Origin: Ferruginibacter sp.
GTDB taxonomy: Bacteria > Bacteroidota > Bacteroidia > Chitinophagales > Chitinophagaceae
Direction of reading: 5' to 3'
DNA: 64,000 bases
Assembly (NCBI GenBank): GCA_013141115.1
Contig: JABFRP010000002.1
Coordinates: 1,228,647 to 1,292,646, forward strand
The position numbers and the translations under genes are program-made. Positions 4,407 to 56,211 of the stretch are shown piece by piece. Under the pieces are notes generated by a model that did not search any database, was not told where the DNA came from, and saw nothing but the letters and a program-made list of their open reading frames with translations. Every line of letters starts with the position of its first letter. Position 1 is the first letter of the stretch.

Positions 4407-4451
4407 GTGGGCCCACCAGGGCACGATCCTGGGACCCCCTGATTATGAGTC
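4407..4451 (-). repeat. attL core: 45-bp displaced 3' part of the CAU tRNA gene
   Basis: Bases 4407-4451 are identical over 45 bp to 52768-52812, which lie inside the complete tRNA. The copy runs from the anticodon stem/loop to position C74. Unlike the element copy, this original end is followed by the rest of an encoded CCA and by the terminator, so it marks the left boundary of the integrated element. Confidence 0.95.
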
Positions 4452-44296: not shown

Positions 44297-44593
44297 ATGG
44301 ATATTAAAAACTGCTTAACAGTCTTGATAGCGTATTTAGGGTTAAAATTTATAGATAAGTTTGTTGAAGACAATTTGCCGAATCTTCATTACAAAAGAAT
44401 CATTAAAGCGTGGAACAATATTAAGCTACCTGTTTTTTTAACTGCATATATTGGCTTTCTATACATAGTTGTTAAAGTGTTGGGTAATAAACAATTTGAG
44501 AGAAATTTCAACAACGCAGTATTAGTTGCTGCATTGGCGATTATCGCAGATAGAGTCATGAGAAAAAAAGTAAAAGAAGTAAATTGTTCTTAA
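44297..44593 (+). CDS. Small membrane protein (98 aa)
   Basis: A protein with two or three hydrophobic segments: residues 6-20, 46-66 (LPVFLTAYIGFLYIVVKVL) and 73-88 (NAVLVAALAIIADRV). It follows the XRE gene by 40 bp and overlaps the stop of the convergent ATPase gene by 4 bp. No family is recognised. It may form a unit with the regulator. Confidence 0.5.
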   Translation: MDIKNCLTVLIAYLGLKFIDKFVEDNLPNLHYKRIIKAWNNIKLPVFLTAYIGFLYIVVKVLGNKQFERNFNNAVLVAALAIIADRVMRKKVKEVNCS

Positions 44594-45900
44594 GAGAATA
44601 AAGAGTTTTGTTCAGAACTAAAGGTCTTTTTAATCTCCTTATACCGAGAATTCATTTCTTGTTCAACTTCTTCTGTTACTCTACCAAACAGTTCTCTTGA
44701 ATGTTGTATAATCTCTTGTTTGAATGAATTTACATTTTGTAGGATTGCAGTGGTGGTAGCACTAAATGGTTTTGATGTAGCCCCGTCAATCATTAATTTT
44801 AAGTACATTGAATATCTCGGAAGATTAATCAAATCTTCTTCGTTGAAGGTGGGGTGTACTTCTTGTACCAGGTGTTTGGCATCTTCAGCTCCTACACGAA
44901 ATATAATCATGGTGCCGACATTCCCAAATATGGCATAGCGTATTTTCTCATTCACCTGTTCTATGTATTGATGTGCAAGGAACAATGATAACCGATATTT
45001 CCTGGCCTCTGCCAAAATATCAATAAAGGCCATTGATACAAATGAATGCATCTCGTCTACATACAGATAAAACGGAATTCGGTATTGTTCTTCTTGTGAT
45101 GCCCTTGCCATTGCTGCGAGTTGTATGGCATTAACCAGCATGCTGCCGAGAATAGTGCTGGCATCTTCTCCTAATTTCCCTTTTGACAAATTGCAGATAA
45201 GTATCTTCTGATTATCCATTACCTCTTGTATCATAAAACTACTTCTTGATTGTCCTATAACATTTCTTAGCAGTGTGATAGCAACGAATAGCCCCGCCTT
45301 GTTTAGTATCGGGCTAATGGCCTCTGCTTTTAATTGCGGTGGGTATTTATCAAATTCATTGTACCAAAATGAAAGCAAGTATTGGTCACTACAGTATGAT
45401 AAAATCCTTCTCCTAAAATCATAGTTAGTGAGAAGGGGCTGAATATCTAATAAAGTTGCATCAGGATAGCTACATAGGGTTAGCAGCACATAGCGTAAAA
45501 TATATTCCAATCGTGGTCCCCAGAAATCTATCCATATCTTTTTAAAGGTTGCTATTAATCCAGATACCACTAAATGAGTTTGATCTTGCGGTATATTATC
45601 TAACGGATTAAAAGCAATGACATACTGCTCATCTGCCGGATTAAAATATATGACATCATTCATCCTCTCTTTGGGAATATGGTCTAATATCTTTTCTGCT
45701 ATATCTCCATGCGGATCAATTAGGCACAATCCATTACCCCGCTGTATATCCGAAATAGCCATGTTTAATAACAAGGTACTTTTTCCTGTGCCGGTTTTTC
45801 CAATCACATAGATATGGTTCATCCGGTCTGCATCTTTTATGCCGAAAGATTTTTTATCATTGCGAAAATTGGTGGTGCCGATAGGGGTGATGTCTGACAT
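44590..45900 (-). CDS. Second VirD4/HerA-like conjugative ATPase
   Basis: A 436-aa ATPase. The P-loop is YVIGKTGTGKSTLL (about 31-44), and the Walker B-type segment is FYLYVDEMHSF near residue 275. SLFLAHQYIEQV is the motif-III-like sensor of TraG/TraD C-terminal domains. Unlike the first coupling protein at 7911-9260 it has no N-terminal membrane helix. It may be a cytosolic coupling-type ATPase or a DNA-pumping HerA relative of the second element. It diverges from the recombinase gene at 46013. Confidence 0.85.
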   Translation of the reverse strand: MSDITPIGTTNFRNDKKSFGIKDADRMNHIYVIGKTGTGKSTLLLNMAISDIQRGNGLCLIDPHGDIAEKILDHIPKERMNDVIYFNPADEQYVIAFNPLDNIPQDQTHLVVSGLIATFKKIWIDFWGPRLEYILRYVLLTLCSYPDATLLDIQPLLTNYDFRRRILSYCSDQYLLSFWYNEFDKYPPQLKAEAISPILNKAGLFVAITLLRNVIGQSRSSFMIQEVMDNQKILICNLSKGKLGEDASTILGSMLVNAIQLAAMARASQEEQYRIPFYLYVDEMHSFVSMAFIDILAEARKYRLSLFLAHQYIEQVNEKIRYAIFGNVGTMIIFRVGAEDAKHLVQEVHPTFNEEDLINLPRYSMYLKLMIDGATSKPFSATTTAILQNVNSFKQEIIQHSRELFGRVTEEVEQEMNSRYKEIKKTFSSEQNSLFS

Positions 45901-46012
45901 CTAGTTATTGTAAAGAAGTGAATGCAGATTTGTAAGGCAGGGTTTTATGTGTGTTAGGCATATTTCCCTCTCCTTACATAATGATTTATTCTTTGTGATA
46001 CTTGAATCACTT

Positions 46013-46948
46013 ATGCGAAAAAACATCCAGCAACTCTTCGAAGAATTTATGTATGAATGTGAGTTTGCAAGAAAAGTGAAACCCAAAACACTTTTGGCAT
46101 ATTCGAATACCTTTCAATTATTTATTAGAATCATACCTGATTGCTCTTTAGATAATCTCACACAAGAAACTATTGTTCGCTTTTTTAAAGTTTTGCAGGA
46201 AAGAAAACGAATTGTAGGGAGAGGTAGCATTAAAGTCGGCATTAAAAAATCTACGGTTGCAACTTATTGGATTAAACTAAATGCTTTTTTTGAATGGCTG
46301 ACTGTACGAAAACATATTACAAGCAACCCTTTCTCTACAATGCGGTTTCCTTCACCCGAATACGTGGATAAAAAGTTTCTTAAGAAAGAAGATATTGAAA
46401 AGATCATAACAGGTATTCATTCGCTTCACAATAATAATATTCTCGCTTTGAAACGAAACCTGGTTATATTTTATATACTGCTGTTTTGTGGTCTTCGCAG
46501 AGAAGAATTATTATCATTACAGGTTCGAGATATAGATTTTGCCAGAAAGACCCTTACAGTGCGTGGTGAAACTTCTAAATCCGGGAGGTCAAGGGATATT
46601 CCACTTCATTCAACAGTATTGATGCATTTAAAGGATTATTTCGACTCAAGAAGAACATACACAACACCCTATTTAATTGTGTCAACCTTACAAGATGAAA
46701 AGCTTACGGATTTTGGCTTAAAACATTTAATTGATAAACTCAAACTTCAAACGGGGGTTGAATTCCATGTACACCAGCTTCGTCACACTTTTGCAGTAAA
46801 TTTTCTCAAAACCAGTAATAATATTTTGAAATTAAAACAACTCATGGGACATAAAGATATTTCCATAACTATGATCTATTTACGTTGTTTGCCAGTCAGC
46901 GAATTTCGTGGTGATATTGAAAATATGAACATTGATAGTTTGATCTAA
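46013..46948 (+). CDS. Tyrosine recombinase, XerD-like (second)
   Basis: A 311-aa recombinase with an N-terminal SAM-like core-binding domain (about 1-105) and a complete catalytic domain. The first Arg is in CGLRREELL, then HQLRHTF (H-x-x-R), LMGHKDI (second His) and the nucleophile in MIYLRC. ATG 46013 is chosen over the longer frame from 45947, as the SAM-like domain starts there. It lies upstream of another recombinase in the same direction, with a tRNA-Lys fragment between. Its target is unknown. Confidence 0.88.
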   Translation: MRKNIQQLFEEFMYECEFARKVKPKTLLAYSNTFQLFIRIIPDCSLDNLTQETIVRFFKVLQERKRIVGRGSIKVGIKKSTVATYWIKLNAFFEWLTVRKHITSNPFSTMRFPSPEYVDKKFLKKEDIEKIITGIHSLHNNNILALKRNLVIFYILLFCGLRREELLSLQVRDIDFARKTLTVRGETSKSGRSRDIPLHSTVLMHLKDYFDSRRTYTTPYLIVSTLQDEKLTDFGLKHLIDKLKLQTGVEFHVHQLRHTFAVNFLKTSNNILKLKQLMGHKDISITMIYLRCLPVSEFRGDIENMNIDSLI

Positions 46949-47085: not shown

Positions 47086-47180
47086 GAAAAACCCTTTATT
47101 TGTGCGCTTAGCAGGATTCGAACCTGCGACCGTCTCCTTAAGAGATAAGTGCTCAAATAGGATTTTCAGAAAACCCTTAT
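47086..47180 (+). repeat. Imperfect direct repeats flanking the tRNA-Lys fragment
   Basis: GAAAAACCCTTTAT (47086-47099) and GAAAACCCTTAT (47169-47180) are near-identical, in the same orientation, one on each side of the 43-bp tRNA fragment. They could be arm-type integrase sites of the second element, like those at 4554-4575 and 52700-52721. This is inference. Confidence 0.4.
47102..47144 (-). other. 3' fragment of a tRNA-Lys(CTT) gene: relic attachment site
   Basis: On the minus strand the 43 bp read as the 3' part of a tRNA: anticodon loop CTCTTAA (anticodon CTT), 3' anticodon stem GGAGA, variable loop CGGTC, T-arm GCAGG-TTCGAAT-CCTGC, acceptor TAAGCGC then AC. The 5' anticodon stem that should precede does not match, and no 5' half is present. 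It begins at the anticodon loop just as the attL core at 4407-4451 does, and lies 122 bp before a recombinase gene in the same relative orientation. Confidence 0.85.
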
Positions 47181-47266: not shown

Positions 47267-48157
47267 ATGGAAATACAAATAATCGCCAAAGAATTTTACG
47301 AGCACTCATTATATTTTAAAGGTTTCTCCAAAGAGACCATAAAACGGTACAAATACACTGTTGACCTCTATTGCAAGATTATGGAGGTTCAACTAATAGA
47401 GCAAGTTACTCAACAGAATGTGAGAGCGTTGTTCTTTCATGGAAGGACAGTAAGACAATGGTCTCCAAATACAGCTATTATTTTCCACAAGTCACTCCAC
47501 GTATTCTTCACTTGGTGTATTTCTAAGCACTATATGGACTTTAATCCAATTGATGACATAGAGAGACCAAAATTACAGCAGAAGCTTCCTAAGAAGCTTA
47601 CCAAACAGGATGCTCACCGCTTACTCGAAATAGTCTACAACTACCCCTATACAAATAGATTTCTCAGATACCGCAATCATGCCATCTTTGCTACTTTTAT
47701 GTTTGCTGGCTTAAGAAAGAGCGAACTTCTAAATCTGAAGTATGCAGATGTGGATATAGAAAACTTAACCATATTTGTGAACCAAGGAAAGGGGTCAAAG
47801 GATAGATTTATTCCGATGTCTCAAACATTGGCTAAAAGTTTGCGAAATTATGTAGAAGAGCGAAAGCGCTGCAAAAAGACATGCCCGGAATTTTTCACTT
47901 CACAAGTACAAAATACAGGACTAACTCAATTTGGACTGAAACATTTTGTTGATAAAGTACAAACCGTATTCGGAACTCGGTTCAGTGTACATAAATTGAG
48001 ACATACGTTTGCAACACTTATGCTTGAAGGAGGATGTGATATCTATTCCCTATCAAAAATGATGGGGCATAGCGACATTAAGACTACTACCATCTATCTG
48101 TATGCAAGTGCAGATCATTTAAGAAGTCAGATGTTGAAGCATCCGATGAATGAGTAA
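47267..48157 (+). CDS. Tyrosine recombinase, XerD-like (third), next to the tRNA-Lys fragment
   Basis: A 296-aa recombinase: SAM-like N-terminal domain (about 1-95) and an intact catalytic domain. The first Arg is in AGLRKSELL, then HKLRHTF, MMGHSDI and the Tyr segment TTIYLYAS. It stands 122 bp after a tRNA-Lys 3' fragment in the same layout as the element's left end (core, about 160 bp, integrase). The simplest reading is that it is the integrase of a second element that targets tRNA-Lys(CTT). Confidence 0.88.
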   Translation: MEIQIIAKEFYEHSLYFKGFSKETIKRYKYTVDLYCKIMEVQLIEQVTQQNVRALFFHGRTVRQWSPNTAIIFHKSLHVFFTWCISKHYMDFNPIDDIERPKLQQKLPKKLTKQDAHRLLEIVYNYPYTNRFLRYRNHAIFATFMFAGLRKSELLNLKYADVDIENLTIFVNQGKGSKDRFIPMSQTLAKSLRNYVEERKRCKKTCPEFFTSQVQNTGLTQFGLKHFVDKVQTVFGTRFSVHKLRHTFATLMLEGGCDIYSLSKMMGHSDIKTTTIYLYASADHLRSQMLKHPMNE

Positions 48158-48252
48158 AGCCAAAAACACATATGGGGTTAATTGTTATAATTTATTAAAG
48201 CATAAGTAATCCTCACTTTATATGCGTTGATGAAGCACTCATCTTGCTTGGA

Positions 48253-48459
48253 TTACCATGTCTGACAATTACAGTGGTAATTACAACTACAAGTATATTC
48301 ACAGCTACAATGTTTACAACTGTAATCTTCACATGTGCAACGATCTGTAAAGGTTCTTTCTGAATTCCTTTTATTTACATCTTTCGACTTTTTGATTTTA
48401 ATGATTAGAGGCTTTATATAATCAGTCCCTAGTTCATTAGGCAGTTTAAAATTTTTCAT
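48253..48459 (-). CDS. Cys-rich RiPP precursor peptide (68 aa)
   Basis: A 68-aa peptide with a Lys-rich leader without Cys (residues 1-40) and a core of 28 residues with nine Cys (41, 43, 48, 51, 53, 57, 59, 63, 65). The core is built of repeated C-x-C-x3 units (CSCEYT, CSCNYH, CNCQTW) after CTCEDYSCKH, with an aromatic residue in each unit. It begins 7 nt after the ParB-like gene, which overlaps the radical SAM gene. A cysteine-rich peptide next to a SPASM radical SAM enzyme is the classic sign of thioether or related cross-linking. No GG leader cleavage site is evident, and neither protease nor exporter is nearby. I do not recognise the family; the CXXX-repeat peptides of Bacteroidota are the nearest I recall, but the spacing differs. 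Confidence 0.8.
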   Translation of the reverse strand: MKNFKLPNELGTDYIKPLIIKIKKSKDVNKRNSERTFTDRCTCEDYSCKHCSCEYTCSCNYHCNCQTW

Positions 48460-48466
48460 ACAAATG

Positions 48467-48916
48467 CTATTTATATGTCAACAATATCGTTTCCGGAATA
48501 ATGTATGCTTTTATAAACTTTAGTCGAAGTAAATACGCCTTTTTAACCCGATGAAGTCCATCGATTACTTTATAAACGCTTTCATTTTTATTTTTTGCAA
48601 CAATTATGGGGTAACTCAGACTCACGTCTATAATAATACTCATGTGTATTTTTTCATGCTCCCGAATACTTTTTTTAGATAAATTTTTATAAAGACACTC
48701 CCAATCAACACAACCATATATAAATTTGACATCAATTAATTCTTCCTTGCAATTGTTCTGGGCAAACCTGATTAAACTATCAATTCGACCGTGTATTGTC
48801 TTATCATTAAAGGTCATTTTGAAATCCTTTTTCAAAGGATCTCGTGTAAATTTCGGTTTTGAGAAGAAAAATTTTACACGAAAGAAATAATATTTAAAAA
48901 GGTTATCTTTTAGCAT
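48467..48916 (-). CDS. ParB/sulfiredoxin-fold protein in the Cys-rich peptide cluster
   Basis: A 149-aa protein. The C-terminal half has the ParB/Srx pattern YPIIVAKNKN, then YKVIDGLHRVKKAYLLRLKF with the D-G-x-H-R nucleotide-binding box. The N-terminal half (GRIDSLIRFAQNN, YGCVDWECL) is unassigned. Members of this fold include ATP-dependent serine kinases and sulfiredoxin, so a second modification, phosphorylation of a precursor, or a regulatory role is possible. Its start overlaps the radical SAM stop by 7 nt, and the precursor gene follows after 7 nt. It is thus tightly built into the cluster. Confidence 0.7.
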   Translation of the reverse strand: MLKDNLFKYYFFRVKFFFSKPKFTRDPLKKDFKMTFNDKTIHGRIDSLIRFAQNNCKEELIDVKFIYGCVDWECLYKNLSKKSIREHEKIHMSIIIDVSLSYPIIVAKNKNESVYKVIDGLHRVKKAYLLRLKFIKAYIIPETILLTYK

Positions 48917-50220
48917 ATTGAATCTTTAATTATCTCTTCGGTCAACGCAGTGGTTATTTTGCATCTTTTATTATTGCTGGTATCAAACATATCTCCTGTG
49001 CTTTTCAATACTTTTGCCAAACAGTCACCTGAGCAACTGAATTTACAAAAACAATTATCACAACTCTTCATACCTGTTACCCTTCGTGATTTAAGAAAAT
49101 CAATTTTGCTCTGATCAAATTGAAATTTGGCATTTATTTCATCATATTTGCCAATAAAAAATGGAGCGTTATCATTATCATCTAGTCTGCATGCCTCTAA
49201 ACAAGTTGTAACGAATGAATCGGGAGTAATAAAGAAATTGTCTCCAGCAGCACCACAGAATTTATCTGATATAGTATTTATTCCAATACCCGAATATGTT
49301 ATTTTAACGCCATTTTTTTTCGCTACTTTCTCTGCCTTACTGTAATTAGCAATAAATTCTTCTTCTGAAGGTGCTTCAATTTTAGAGGTTTTACACCTTC
49401 CACATTCAAAAAGAGGTTCTAAGTGAAAATTATTTTGCTTACTTATTTTACAAAAATGTTCAACAATCTCATCCATTCTATTTACACTATACTTTGTGAT
49501 GGTTGCACGTATCCCGTAGCTAATGTTGTTTTGTTCAAATAAATTAATTGTATTCAGAGTATGGGTATATGAATCTTTATTATGTCCCCTTTTTGGTCTC
49601 TGATAATTTTGAATATCGGGAGGCCCGTCAAGGGAAATACTTATTCTTGAAAAATTGGTTTTTAGCCAGGCAATATTAAACCTCTCAATATCTACGCCAT
49701 TTGTTACAGCAGAAAATTGGCAATTCAAACCAGCTTTTGATGCTTTTTGTTTGGTAAACTCTATAACCTTTTCAATAAAGTGTTTATTGGCATATAGAAG
49801 TGGCTCCCCTCCTCCATGAAACCCTATGCTGATATGCTTTTTGGTTAATTCTAAGGCATTCTTAATAATAAATTCGATGGCTATTATTGCTGTATTTATG
49901 CTGATTTTATTTGTAACAAAATCACCTCCATTAGAATAACAATAAATGCACTCTAAATTGCAAATAAAGGATGGTAAAAAGGTGACATCTGTGGGTTTAT
50001 ATAACGTATCTTTAAAAGGATAAACAGAACTTTCAAATACACCAATCTCTTTCAATTTTTGAACAATTTCATTATTAGGATCAACGTTTTCTCCCTTATC
50101 AATTGCGTTTAACAATTTAATTGTATCAGAGTTTACAACTGCAGAAGTAGATTTTAATGGCAGGTATAAAATATAGTTTTCTTCATTTTTTAAAATAAAT
50201 AGGTCATCATTTATTTTCAT
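48910..50220 (-). CDS. Radical SAM/SPASM peptide maturase
   Basis: A 436-aa enzyme. Residues about 1-62 form a small domain resembling a PqqD-like peptide-recognition element (ILYLPLKSTSAVVNSDTIKL). The radical SAM cluster motif is C87-x3-C91-x2-C94 (CNLECIYC), followed by the GGEP-type motif FHGGGEP and SISLDGP. The C-terminal SPASM region has Cys-rich segments (DKFCGAAGD, TTCLEACR, KSCDNCFCKFSCSGDC, NKRCK) for auxiliary Fe-S clusters. It most likely installs cross-links in the Cys-rich peptide encoded two genes downstream. An XRE gene diverges upstream, with an inverted repeat between. Confidence 0.88.
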   Translation of the reverse strand: MKINDDLFILKNEENYILYLPLKSTSAVVNSDTIKLLNAIDKGENVDPNNEIVQKLKEIGVFESSVYPFKDTLYKPTDVTFLPSFICNLECIYCYSNGGDFVTNKISINTAIIAIEFIIKNALELTKKHISIGFHGGGEPLLYANKHFIEKVIEFTKQKASKAGLNCQFSAVTNGVDIERFNIAWLKTNFSRISISLDGPPDIQNYQRPKRGHNKDSYTHTLNTINLFEQNNISYGIRATITKYSVNRMDEIVEHFCKISKQNNFHLEPLFECGRCKTSKIEAPSEEEFIANYSKAEKVAKKNGVKITYSGIGINTISDKFCGAAGDNFFITPDSFVTTCLEACRLDDNDNAPFFIGKYDEINAKFQFDQSKIDFLKSRRVTGMKSCDNCFCKFSCSGDCLAKVLKSTGDMFDTSNNKRCKITTALTEEIIKDSIC

Positions 50221-50248
50221 AACTTTATTTATTTAGTCTAGGAAGTTA

Positions 50249-50276
50249 TATCATATATGATTTTAAAAATATGATA
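50249..50276. promoter_or_regulatory. Operator candidate between the radical SAM and XRE genes
   Basis: TATCATAT (50249-50256) and ATATGATA (50269-50276) form a perfect 8-bp inverted repeat 12 bp apart. The left half overlaps a second palindrome, ATCATATATGAT (50250-50261). The site lies 29 bp upstream of the radical SAM start in the divergent intergenic region, so the XRE protein is its natural binder. Confidence 0.55.
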
Positions 50277-50365
50277 TTGATCATCCTGGGTTATCCACAG
50301 ATTTGTGGCTAATAAGCCAGTTTCCCTCCCCTTACTTATTTCTCTTTCTTGTCTACACTGAATAC

Positions 50366-50638
50366 ATGGAGAAAGGTCGATATCCAAACAAATTAAAATT
50401 GTTCCGACACAGCAAGGGGTATTCCCGAAAGAAAGTTGCCCGTATGGTTGGGCTGGCTGATCCCAGTCAACTCTCTAAATGGGAGCGGGGTGTTGTTCTT
50501 CCCAATCTCTTGCAGGTGTTCTATCTTGCCCGGATATATCAAACCCACCCTATTGAATTATTTGATGATCTCTGGAAGCAAGTAGGTTCTGAATGTAATT
50601 TGTTGGCTCAGCATACAGAGCCTGATATTAATAACTAA
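50366..50638 (+). CDS. XRE-family regulator, divergent from the peptide cluster
   Basis: A 90-aa Cro/CI-type HTH protein (KLFRHSKGYSRKKVARMVGL, then PSQLSKWERGVVLPNLLQVF, YLARIYQTHPIELF). ATG 50366 is chosen over the frame from 50303, as the HTH domain begins right there. It is followed by a terminator at 50695-50718. It may control the RiPP-like operon, itself, or the genes to the right leading to ardC. Confidence 0.85.
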   Translation: MEKGRYPNKLKLFRHSKGYSRKKVARMVGLADPSQLSKWERGVVLPNLLQVFYLARIYQTHPIELFDDLWKQVGSECNLLAQHTEPDINN

Positions 50639-51733: not shown

Positions 51734-52648
51734 ATGGATTCAAAAAACACTTCATCCACAAAGCTGGATGTGTATCAAATGGTCACAGACCGCATTATTG
51801 AATTACTGGAAGCTGGTACTGTTCCATGGCAAAAGCCATGGTCTGAAACTGGTGTTCCTATGAACATGATTAGTAAACGGCCATACCGGGGTATTAACCT
51901 TTGGCTGTTACTATCGCTTAACTATGAACGCAATTTGTTCCTGACCTGGGATCAACTCAAAAAGATTGGCGGTTCAGTCAATCAGGGGCAACATGGCCAC
52001 ATTGTTGTCTTCTGGAAACAGGTGAAGAAAATGCCTGAAGAATTAGATGATAAAGGCAAACCGAAAGTAATGCCAATGCTTCGGTATTACAAAGTCTTCA
52101 ATGTTGAACAATGCCGGGATATTCCAAAGGATTTAATCCCTGAGTTTGTTAAGGTTGAAACTGATAGTATCCTGGAATGCGAAGCTATCATTAACAGCAT
52201 GCCTGGCTGCCCGGTGATAAAGCATAAGGAACAAAAAGCGTTCTATCATCTTATTGAGGATTATATCAACATGCCAAAGAAGAAAAGCTTTAAAATTCCT
52301 GAAAGCTATTATTCAACGCTTTTTCACGAGCTGGTACATAGTACCGGCACAGAAAAACGTTTGGGTAGAAAATCAATTGTTGATATGGCTGAGTTTGGTT
52401 CTGAACCTTACAGCATGGAAGAACTGATTGCTGAACTGGGTGCTTCTTATCTGAATTCCTATACTGGTATCCTGGACAAGCAGGTTGAAAACTCTGCTTC
52501 TTATATCTGTAGTTGGCTTGAAAAGTTTAAAAGTGATAAGCGCTTTATCATTAGTGCCAGTGGTCAGGCACAAAGAGCTGTTGATCTTATACTAAACAGG
52601 CAGGAAGTAGAATCAAAAGATGAAGTTGAAGAATCTATGGTCAGTTAG
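51734..52648 (+). CDS. ArdC-type antirestriction protein (ssDNA-binding plus zincin-like metallopeptidase)
   Basis: A 304-aa protein. The N-terminal DUF1738-type ssDNA-binding domain is at about 8-130 (ELLEAGTVPWQKPW, PYRGINLWLL, GGSVNQGQHGHIVVFWK). The C-terminal zincin-like peptidase domain has the HELVHSTG zinc motif near residue 198 and a downstream Glu-rich helix (EELIAELGASYLNS). ArdC proteins shield the incoming strand from restriction in the recipient. Its place at the right end of the element is common for such genes. Confidence 0.9.
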   Translation: MDSKNTSSTKLDVYQMVTDRIIELLEAGTVPWQKPWSETGVPMNMISKRPYRGINLWLLLSLNYERNLFLTWDQLKKIGGSVNQGQHGHIVVFWKQVKKMPEELDDKGKPKVMPMLRYYKVFNVEQCRDIPKDLIPEFVKVETDSILECEAIINSMPGCPVIKHKEQKAFYHLIEDYINMPKKKSFKIPESYYSTLFHELVHSTGTEKRLGRKSIVDMAEFGSEPYSMEELIAELGASYLNSYTGILDKQVENSASYICSWLEKFKSDKRFIISASGQAQRAVDLILNRQEVESKDEVEESMVS

Positions 52649-52767: not shown

Positions 52768-52812
52768 GTGGGCCCACCAGGGCACGATCCTGGGACCCCC
52801 TGATTATGAGTC
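52768..52812 (-). repeat. attR core: 45-bp repeat inside the restored tRNA
   Basis: Identical to 4407-4451. It covers the tRNA from the anticodon stem/loop to A73 plus one C. The bases beyond differ (TT here against CA at attL), so this copy came from the element's own attP site. Confidence 0.95.
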
Positions 52813-52842
52813 AGGTGCTCTAACCAACTGAGCTATAGGCCC
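52769..52842 (-). tRNA. tRNA with CAU anticodon (elongator Met or lysidine-type Ile2)
   Basis: Complete cloverleaf: acceptor GGGCCTA/TGGGCCC, D-arm GCTC/GAGC, anticodon arm CCTGA-CTCATAA-TCAGG, variable GGGTC, T-arm CCAGG/CCTGG. The anticodon is CAT, so it is either elongator Met or Ile2; the D-arm and acceptor do not decide it with certainty. The T-loop ATCGTGC is unusual, having A54 and T58 where T54 and A58 are expected. CCA is not encoded: A73 is followed by CTT. It is the integration target of the element. Confidence 0.93.
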
Positions 52843-54720: not shown

Positions 54721-56211
54721 TTAAATACTCCAGCTTACACCACCGTCTTTTTCATCTTTTAAATTAATACCCATTGCGGTTAACTGGTTTCTTATTTTAT
54801 CGCTGGTGGCAAAATCTTTTTTCAATTTGGCCTCTTTTCTTATATCGATCAATAATTCCATTACGCTGCTGAGTTTACCATCATCGCCCAAACTAAAATT
54901 ATCTTTTAAGCCAAATACATCTTCTATATACGCCTTAAACTTTTCCTGCATCAGGGTTATTGTAGAAGGTGCAAGTGCATCAGGTTTTATCAATCCATCC
55001 TTAATAGAATTAATAACCGGTACCAACTCAAACATGGTGGCTAATACTTTAGCCGTGTTAAAATCATCATTCATGTTGTCATCAAATGCGGCTATCAATT
55101 GCAGGCATTTAGCATTTAGTTCTGCGTCTCCGGCTGCTGCATTCCCTGCTACTTTAAACTTATTCAGCACTTCATACGCTTCCCACAATCTTTTTAAACC
55201 TTTTTCCGATGCTTGCAATGCCTCATTACTAAAATCGAGTGTACTGCGGTAATGGGTTTGCAGCATAAAAAAGCGAACGGTCATTGGCGAGTAAGCTTTA
55301 TCCAGCAAAGGATGGCTGCCGGTAAATAACTCTTCCGGTAAAAAGCCATTACCTAAAGATTTACTCATACGGGTGCCGTTAACAGTTAGCATATTGGTAT
55401 GCATCCAATAGTTTGCAGGCCGGGTATGGTTGCAAGCCTGGCTTTGTGCAATTTCGTTAGTATGATGTGTGGCAGCAAGGTCCATTCCTCCACCATGTAT
55501 ATCAAATTGTTTGCCTAAATATTTTTCACTCATAGCCGAGCACTCAATATGCCATCCCGGAAAACCCATTCCCCAAGGGCTTGGCCATTGCATTAAATGC
55601 TCCGGCTTTGCTTTTATCCATAATGCAAAATCGAGGCGGCCACGTTTTTCATCCTGTCCACCCAGTTCTCTTGTCCCCTCTAAAAGATCATCTAATTTTC
55701 TGTTAGTTAAAATACCATAAGGTTGTTCCTTATTATATTTTTCTACATCAAAATAAATAGTGCCATTTACTTCATAGGCATACCCATTGGCAATAATTTG
55801 TTGGGTCATTTCAATTTGTTCTGATATATGGCCTGTAGCAGTTGGTTCTATAGATGGCGGCAGATTATTAAGCAACTGCATTACATGACGAAAACCCAAT
55901 GTATATTTTTGAACAATTTCCATTGGTTCCACCTGCTGCAACCTGGCAATTTTACTAAACTTATCATCACCTTCGTCACGGTCGCCTTCTAAATGGCCGG
56001 CATCGGTAATGTTACGCACATACCTCACTTTATATTGTAAGTATTTTAAGTACCGGAAAATAATATCAAAAGAAATAAACGTACGGCAATTGCCTAAATG
56101 CACATCACTGTAAACGGTGGGGCCGCACACGTAAATACCTACGTGGCCTGGTGTAATGGGTGTAAACTCTTCTTTTTCTCTTGAAAGGGTATTGTAAATT
56201 TTTAATGCCAT
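54721..56211 (-). CDS. cysS: Cysteine--tRNA ligase
   Basis: A 496-aa class I aminoacyl-tRNA synthetase that charges tRNA-Cys. The HIGH-type motif is in VYSDVHLGNCR (about 33-43). Zinc ligands are in VCGPTVY (Cys29) and in GWHIECSAM with HHTNEIAQ near 210-240. The KMSKS motif is RMSKSLGN near 275. The DALR-type helical C-terminus follows. Length is normal for the family. A TTG-N19-TACCTTTG promoter lies 115-144 bp upstream. Confidence 0.97.
   Translation of the reverse strand: MALKIYNTLSREKEEFTPITPGHVGIYVCGPTVYSDVHLGNCRTFISFDIIFRYLKYLQYKVRYVRNITDAGHLEGDRDEGDDKFSKIARLQQVEPMEIVQKYTLGFRHVMQLLNNLPPSIEPTATGHISEQIEMTQQIIANGYAYEVNGTIYFDVEKYNKEQPYGILTNRKLDDLLEGTRELGGQDEKRGRLDFALWIKAKPEHLMQWPSPWGMGFPGWHIECSAMSEKYLGKQFDIHGGGMDLAATHHTNEIAQSQACNHTRPANYWMHTNMLTVNGTRMSKSLGNGFLPEELFTGSHPLLDKAYSPMTVRFFMLQTHYRSTLDFSNEALQASEKGLKRLWEAYEVLNKFKVAGNAAAGDAELNAKCLQLIAAFDDNMNDDFNTAKVLATMFELVPVINSIKDGLIKPDALAPSTITLMQEKFKAYIEDVFGLKDNFSLGDDGKLSSVMELLIDIRKEAKLKKDFATSDKIRNQLTAMGINLKDEKDGGVSWSI

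Follow-up and report, generated by a model that had tools for sequence, protein, structure and literature searches.

A cysteine-rich peptide, a SPASM maturase and a ParB/Srx-fold protein encoded as a putative RiPP cargo cassette on a candidate tRNA-Met element of Ferruginibacter sp.

In a 64,000-nucleotide stretch of Ferruginibacter sp. DNA (assembly GCA_013141115.1, contig JABFRP010000002.1, positions 1,228,647 to 1,292,646; hereafter the window, to which the positions below refer), three genes on the minus strand encode a radical S-adenosylmethionine (SAM)/SPASM peptide maturase of 436 aa (48910..50220), a ParB/Srx-fold protein of 149 aa (48467..48916) and a cysteine-rich candidate precursor peptide of 68 aa (48253..48459), in that order. 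We consider it probable that this trio is a horizontally acquired cargo cassette, lying on a putative element of 48.4 kb at a tRNA-Met gene and making a ranthipeptide-like, cysteine-rich ribosomally synthesized and post-translationally modified peptide (RiPP). The genes, their domains, the cluster cysteines of the maturase, the slot in which the genes lie and the tRNA repeat are read directly from the DNA. The original prediction, made from the sequence before this analysis, had described the three genes as overlapping or touching, and coordinates, strand and junctions all agree with it: the maturase stop and the ParB-fold start share a 7-base overlap (ATGCTAA), and a gap of 7 bases separates the ParB-fold stop (48467) from the peptide start (48459). 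The guanine-plus-cytosine (GC) content of the three genes is 0.29-0.31, compared with 0.37-0.42 for three backbone genes of the element. DNA homology to a contig of the same genus, G1295, ends at 48144 and resumes at 50366, which delimits a cargo slot (48145..50365) holding the three genes alone; short matches to two further genomes, G126 and G1296, start at 50322 and 50287 and place the right edge of the slot nearer to 50287-50322. Since the slot holds exactly the trio, and the trio is low in GC, a joint arrival of the three genes in a single piece of accessory cargo is most likely, and this is the best argument for a functional link between them. The mobile element and its cargo slot are context that goes beyond the original prediction.

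The peptide is free of Cys in residues 1-40, the candidate leader (48340..48459, minus strand), and carries nine Cys in residues 41-68, the candidate core (48256..48339, minus strand), just as had been proposed. The Cys lie at positions 41, 43, 48, 51, 53, 57, 59, 63 and 65, giving the spacing CxC-x4-C-x2-CxC-x3-CxC-x3-CxC. The idea that the core is built of C-x-C-x3 units with an aromatic residue in each holds in part: the last six Cys follow that spacing and the spacers EDYS, EYT and NYH each contain Tyr, but the first Cys are spaced differently and the spacer KH has His alone. Among the 243 open reading frames (ORFs) of 40-120 aa in the window the peptide ranks first, with nine Cys per 28 residues (seven in the next) and four CxC motifs; 60 simulated windows of 64 kb, matched to it in first-order composition, gave maxima of eight Cys per 28 residues and three CxC. 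The Cys pattern of the peptide exceeds chance. No NCBIfam, Pfam or PADLOC family matched it, SCIFF and CXXX peptide models included, in keeping with the earlier view that its spacing fits neither type; it has nine Cys, not the six of SCIFF precursors. Of its nine Cys just one (C41-x3-D45) fits a Cx3D/E repeat, and no Asp-Cys pair occurs; counting from the leading Cys of the successive CxC motifs, position i+4 is D, Y, Y and T, and this differs in relatives.

The maturase contains the full CxxxCxxC site that had been claimed for it (C87, C91 and C94), within a radical SAM domain that scores above cut-off (PF04055, E 1.8e-12), and the several SPASM cysteines are likewise present, at residues 322, 340, 387, 390, 396, 400 and 420, which we take to be the SPASM set. 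All of these Cys are invariant in a five-row alignment of the window enzyme with four relatives; in a more diverse ten-row alignment 322, 340 and 387 are invariant and 390, 400 and 420 nearly so, while 396 is in neither list. Among NCBIfam models the nif11-like maturase NlpM (TIGR04064) gave the top bit score (113.6), yet this is under its cut-off of 518.7, the system shows no Nif11 leader match, and NlpM lies outside the 14-row set of the maturase tree described below. PapB (NF047865) came second with 111.9 bits (cut-off 340), and it is the first model for five relatives of the enzyme; the SCIFF maturase model TIGR03974 gave 92.3 bits against a curated 425. As these scores fall short of the cut-offs, we keep the enzyme out of the PapB and SCIFF families.

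The fold of the maturase was predicted from a ten-row alignment of the window enzyme with fetched loci (predicted local distance difference test, pLDDT, 83.4; predicted template modelling score, pTM, 0.82). CteB was its best structural match by VIA-align (5why_B: Z 32.9, 395 aligned residues, root-mean-square deviation, rmsd, 4.9; 5wgg_A: Z 32.7, 404 aligned, rmsd 4.6, range 4-436), and Foldseek also ranked CteB first (TM 0.70, rmsd 6.4-6.6). For sulfatase maturase (Z 29.5) and ChlB (Z 28.9) the alignment begins no earlier than residue 72-76, and TigE (Z 26.1, 388 aligned) spans residues 1-436. The CteB alignment runs from residue 4-5 to 436, so that most of the N-terminal part is aligned too; this part (about residues 1-75) is PqqD/RRE-like by prediction, with a b-b-b-a-a order in residues 8-58, a part of the prediction that the tool itself marks as barely tested. 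Judged from the model, the enzyme has the look of a RiPP-type SPASM maturase acting in the manner of ranthipeptide enzymes.

Because the named families work so, we propose that the 40-residue leader would be bound by the RRE-like N-terminal part of the enzyme, which would cleave SAM at its CxxxCxxC cluster and take hydrogen from residues of the CxC-x3/x4 core. These residues would then be joined to Cys sulfur, giving several cross-links, presumably thioethers, with 2 Da lost for each. The ParB-fold protein would be a translation-coupled, probably nucleoside triphosphate (NTP)-binding accessory factor that helps or controls the maturation. Of the RiPP-like cluster originally proposed, the maturation of the Cys-rich peptide by the SPASM enzyme is well supported by the anatomy of the genes, whereas the kinase role suggested for the ParB-fold protein finds no support, as argued below.

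The ranthipeptide maturases CteB (SCIFF/thermocellin) and PapB (freyrasin) resemble the window enzyme in their Cys-rich substrates, the former being its best fold match and the latter the first or second NCBIfam model for it and for five relatives. The scores, however, are far under both cut-offs, the core is neither a six-Cys SCIFF core nor the six Cx3D/E units described for the PapB precursor (PMC9413430), and the window has an extra ParB-fold gene. Clo7bot, CcpM and CefB systems likewise pair a SPASM maturase with a Cys-rich peptide, but their scores too lie below cut-off, the window peptide matches none of their models, and CtpM (Clo7bot) is outside the 14-row set. The nearest printed arrangement that we found, likened by description and not by sequence, appears to be Cluster 59 of a survey of IPR023867, which comprises a recombinase, a radical SAM enzyme and a peptide with repeated Asp-Cys (PMC9062424). 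Like the window it has a small radical SAM and Cys-repeat peptide cassette adjoining a recombinase; the window differs in having no Asp-Cys pair and in adding the ParB-fold gene. A Methylocystis relative of the window enzyme resembles Cluster 59 in both the nearby recombinase and the Asp-Cys pairs. In the accessible text of the open-licence literature we found no description of a ParB-fold RiPP partner or of a CxC-x3 precursor of the window type; the part of PMC13289182 available mentions ParB for chromosome partitioning only, and the term 'radical SAM' is absent from the accessible main text of a survey of the ParB/Srx fold (PMC12704722).

Full-length relatives of the maturase are few and distant, the best in plasmid records being those of Methylocystis iwaonis (29.1%) and Caballeronia sp. 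NK8 (28.7%). In Methylocystis an unannotated ORF of 128 aa with 19 Cys lies 32 bases after the maturase ORF and contains CECEDYVC (CTCEDYSC in the window peptide) and CxxxCxCxxxCxC. In Candidatus Chlorohelix the maturase comes after a 422-aa protein with the tail CTCNLICTCDAQCTC, whose Cys are spaced like the final six of the window peptide (CxCx3CxCx3CxC), and this protein is adjoined by a WD40 protein with a similar tail start. The Caballeronia neighbour is a protein with a Tat-like start (by eye) plus CSC, CAC and CVC. Viral contigs located using alignments carry a 62-aa upstream ORF ending CGCDCNDSSGTW (L227), a 28-aa upstream ORF with CCDCFGGGCRC (L228), a radical SAM gene followed directly by a 234-aa protein with 13 CxC motifs (L231, 4986-7074), and an ORF with CTCDLNC and then a Hint/intein-like stretch, which ends 7 bases before a radical SAM gene (L014, 4145-6140) and may combine cross-linking with splicing. 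A maturase with a CxC-rich peptide thus recurs without the ParB-fold gene. The occurrence of CxC cores as tails of larger proteins in Chlorohelix and phage contigs hints that this group of maturases cross-links protein tails as well as small peptides.

On the Chlorohelix plasmid (L025, 10669-13192) three radical SAM genes adjoin the WD40 and 422-aa proteins, both of which end in a common Cys-rich tail (CG.xIPAGAVCxCNC ... HYWxPN), and the maturases there may act on protein tails. Two other viral contigs (L233, 4995-6356; L235, 4986-8114) have radical SAM-like ORFs with C-terminal HGDHxD repeats. Viral contigs were also searched with exact seven-Cys patterns, which returned at least 120 stretches per pattern; a motif test found a maturase in none of the 199 stretches fetched from the matches listed. 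Among these same matches, 61 stretches held 66 ORFs with the Cys pattern, of which 4 were not overshadowed by a longer ORF, and all of these were chance-like.

In a tree of 32 maturases, a 14-row set (support 96/89) that includes the window enzyme holds eight of the nine rows labelled as having a CxC neighbour, with NlpM, CtpM, PeaB and AtsB outside it. Four loci were dropped as short or misread ORFs (L003, L005, L007 and L008), and L015-L017 and L234 stand outside the tree, as do, at some loci, a second and third radical SAM gene. With lenient labels, of which those of L010 and L014 were given by hand, the CxC association is 8/14 against 1/18 (p 0.004), which we regard as suggestive and no proof.

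Several observations weigh against the ranthipeptide-like reading of the cassette or temper the evidence for it. The CxC labels were assigned after looking; under a strict rule, with Chlorohelix counted once, the association is a modest 5/13 against 1/18 (p 0.06), and without the window it is 4/12 against 1/18 (p 0.13). L007 and L008 pass the strict rule through chance-like ORFs, and including both would weaken the association further. The label needs six changes on the tree, which 33 of 500 shuffles do as well, so that CxC substrates do not form one clean clade; the tree tool also warns of 12 long end branches and of atypical composition in nine rows, the window's included. Six other rows of the 14-row set have no CxC neighbour. 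Edwardsiella and Salmonella rows adjoin short ORFs with a CCRGG tail and no CxC, L226 has a 78-aa neighbour ORF with five Cys and no CxC, L246 a leader-type ORF of 124 aa, and L248, a short contig, no recognisable neighbour; the Bacteroidota maturase L247 (1146-3024) adjoins a 119-aa Met/Lys/Pro-repeat protein without Cys, which is a candidate substrate of another sort. The CxC cores compared share no constant acceptor residue, and each of the 25 NCBIfam scores listed for the maturase, out of 50 families, falls far short of its cut-off. Neither an exporter or transporter nor a protease or immunity gene is present in the slot or adjoining the trio, the rest of the genome not having been searched for an exporter. 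Finally, a profile of the ParB-fold protein was run over 1285 ORFs of at least 60 aa. These came from 40 loci whose flanks varied in length; counting the window's, 36 were maturase loci. The profile retrieved only two of its own four rows, namely the window gene and a single phage gene, and no copy beside the 35 other maturase loci.

The trio is also rare. Besides itself, the maturase had no match in 294 genomes of the family (E 1e-30) or in 93 of the same genus (E 1e-20), and two distant ones in 395 genomes of the phylum (E 1e-25). A five-row alignment found none in 295 genomes of the class (E 1e-45), and a three-row alignment gave one genome at E 1e-50 or better among the 349 of another phylum sample. 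The samples overlap one another and cover little of the phylum, and scoring was limited in some genomes to a subset of the first-look candidates. The original prediction had itself counted a lack of co-occurrence of the trio elsewhere as adverse, and such a lack is what we found, in samples where the queries were the maturase and the ParB-fold protein and not the three genes as a unit.

The ParB/Srx fold of the third protein, also part of the original prediction, is supported by sequence for about residues 87-143 only, a region that includes a GLHR phosphate-motif at residues 120-123. The ParB-like family phrog_33277 matches the protein at E 4.9e-7, whereas the SbnI model of NCBIfam gives E 0.0021 and 17.4 bits against a curated score of 350; a structure model from the single sequence was unusable (pLDDT 34.6). 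By tblastn its relatives are in Rhizobium and Sinorhizobium phages (17 records, E 1e-3 to 0.3). Three of these phage proteins (150-151 and 138 aa), aligned at 20-27% identity, share the GxHR motif and flanking positions, a pattern common also to SbnI and SerK; two of the three are near the window protein in length, while SbnI and SerK are larger. The annotated neighbours of the phage genes within 2-4 kb include no maturase and are mostly hypothetical. No credible match besides the protein itself was found in 247 genomes of the class, where a single extra match (G742, 3.4e-4) was rejected as a sequence full of stops; there was no match in viral contigs, and none in plasmids at E 0.1. A four-row profile searched against the PDB gave SbnI (0.0065), SerK (0.03) and ParB (0.18). 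The best match of all in that search was Cmr1 (E 0.001), aligned over a range that is longer and different, and we took it as chance. Proteins of this fold are reported to bind ATP, CTP or GTP and to be often encoded by orphan genes on mobile elements (PMC12704722).

These similarities invite a two-step pathway, in which the ParB-fold protein would be an NTP-dependent tailoring enzyme, of kinase or activating type, that modifies Ser, Thr or Cys in the core before or after cross-linking. Its gene is translation-coupled between those of the maturase and the peptide, the GLHR motif and the SbnI and SerK matches are in keeping with such a role, and the core does hold several Ser and Thr; but SerK, the kinase of this fold that has been studied, phosphorylates free serine and not serine within a peptide (PMC5120207), and SbnI and SerK have chains of 242-256 residues compared with 149 here. 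Moreover, the nearest relatives are lone phage proteins, Cmr1, though probably by chance, scores above SbnI, and the nucleotide used within the fold is not predictable from sequence (PMC12704722). We therefore consider this pathway quite unlikely, and the phosphorylation of the peptide that had been suggested earlier is not borne out, given also that no such gene stands beside the 35 other maturase loci. Most likely the protein binds nucleotides and helps or controls the maturation, and an accessory role in maturation is more likely than that of a peptide kinase.

A bolder extension of the ranthipeptide-like reading, which we put forward as unlikely though worth stating, is a new mobile RiPP class in which the SPASM maturase lays a thioether ladder in CxC-x3 units and a small ParB/Srx-fold NTP-binding protein aids or controls the maturation, possibly for defence of element and host. 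It would be the first ParB/Srx fold in a peptide-modification pathway. The ranthipeptide-like reading itself, if true, would add a Cys spacing and a partner fold that we did not find described for SPASM RiPP systems, and it would mean that such a cassette can be cargo of a tRNA-integrated element. It would also offer a compact three-gene system for probing an orphan ParB/Srx-fold protein, one of a widespread group of which most members are unstudied.

The element itself appears to be an integrative one, bounded by 45-bp repeats and putatively mobile. The right repeat (52768..52812) lies inside tRNA-Met (CAT; 52768..52842, minus strand), the insertion site, and the left (4407..4451) is an exact direct repeat of the tRNA-Met 3' end and a candidate attachment site. 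Between them are two tyrosine recombinases, one adjoining the cassette (47267..48157, plus strand) and the other at 45947..46948 (plus strand), a TraD/TraG-type coupling protein (44590..45900, minus strand), a helix-turn-helix regulator of the backbone as right-hand neighbour of the slot (50303..50638, plus strand; ORF start codon uncertain) and an ArdC-type antirestriction protein (51734..52648, plus strand). Beyond the right repeat, at 54721, is a class I tRNA synthetase gene. The G1295 contig (L263) has the same order of coupling protein (62%), recombinases (56 and 59%), regulator, two small ORFs and ArdC (62%), and in place of the trio its slot holds an N6-methylase-like gene and one gene of no known kind. 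In G126 (L264, 2612-6488), also of this genus, the recombinase differs but the regulator is shared, and upstream of it lie N6-methylase-like, NucC-like (DUF6602) and NYN genes, which are possibly defence cargo of the element family.

Such cargo in or beside the corresponding place, together with ArdC in the backbone and the lack of an exporter adjoining the trio, raises the alternative of a defence or conflict module, whose matured peptide would counter phages or plasmids from within the cell, under NTP-linked control by the ParB-fold protein. We hold this to be rather improbable, as the PADLOC matches of the trio are a pVip viperin model for the maturase (E 1.4e-12), which reflects the common radical SAM core (NCBIfam viperin 46.5 bits, cut-off 180), and NsnC for the ParB-fold protein (0.0029), and as accessory slots carry unrelated cargo too. 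With no exporter or immunity gene adjoining and a slot for accessory genes, we favour a product that acts in its own cell or leaves it by lysis or shared export.

It is very unlikely, in our view, that the core is instead a metallothionein-like set of Cys ligands in a metal-binding peptide, with the maturase acting elsewhere or on few residues. Cys dominate the core, and CxCx3CxCx3CxC is the spacing of plant type 1 metallothioneins, but a metallothionein would not typically have a charged leader of 40 residues or Tyr, His and Trp within its core. The gene is, moreover, coupled to that of a SPASM enzyme, and the peptide had no Pfam match at E up to 10, where HMMER filters discard most weak matches, and three PDB matches only (E 0.15 to 0.83), with no metallothionein chain among them; a single PHROG match had E 0.14, and matches in plasmid records had E 7 and 10 only. 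Other RiPP precursors, which have six Cys and lie beside DUF692 genes, have been suggested to coordinate metal (PMC8692599), and we count this in favour of the alternative. That an orphan maturase, an unrelated phage-type ParB-fold gene and a Cys-rich ORF are chance neighbours is hardly credible, even though no second trio was found in the samples searched and the element is mobile and mosaic: the overlapping and 7-base junctions on one strand, the common low GC, the insertion of exactly these genes, a Cys pattern beyond simulation and the recurrence of a maturase with a CxC peptide all speak for the cargo cassette.

Scans for promoters and terminators were uninformative, with 16 and 2 sites against 17.5 and 1.8 in shuffles. 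The element also holds ORFs of 1354, 1360, 1414 and 1538 aa. Between the two recombinases, at 47100-47160, what looks by eye like the 3' half of a tRNA is present; ARAGORN calls none there, and the genome holds no second copy of it.

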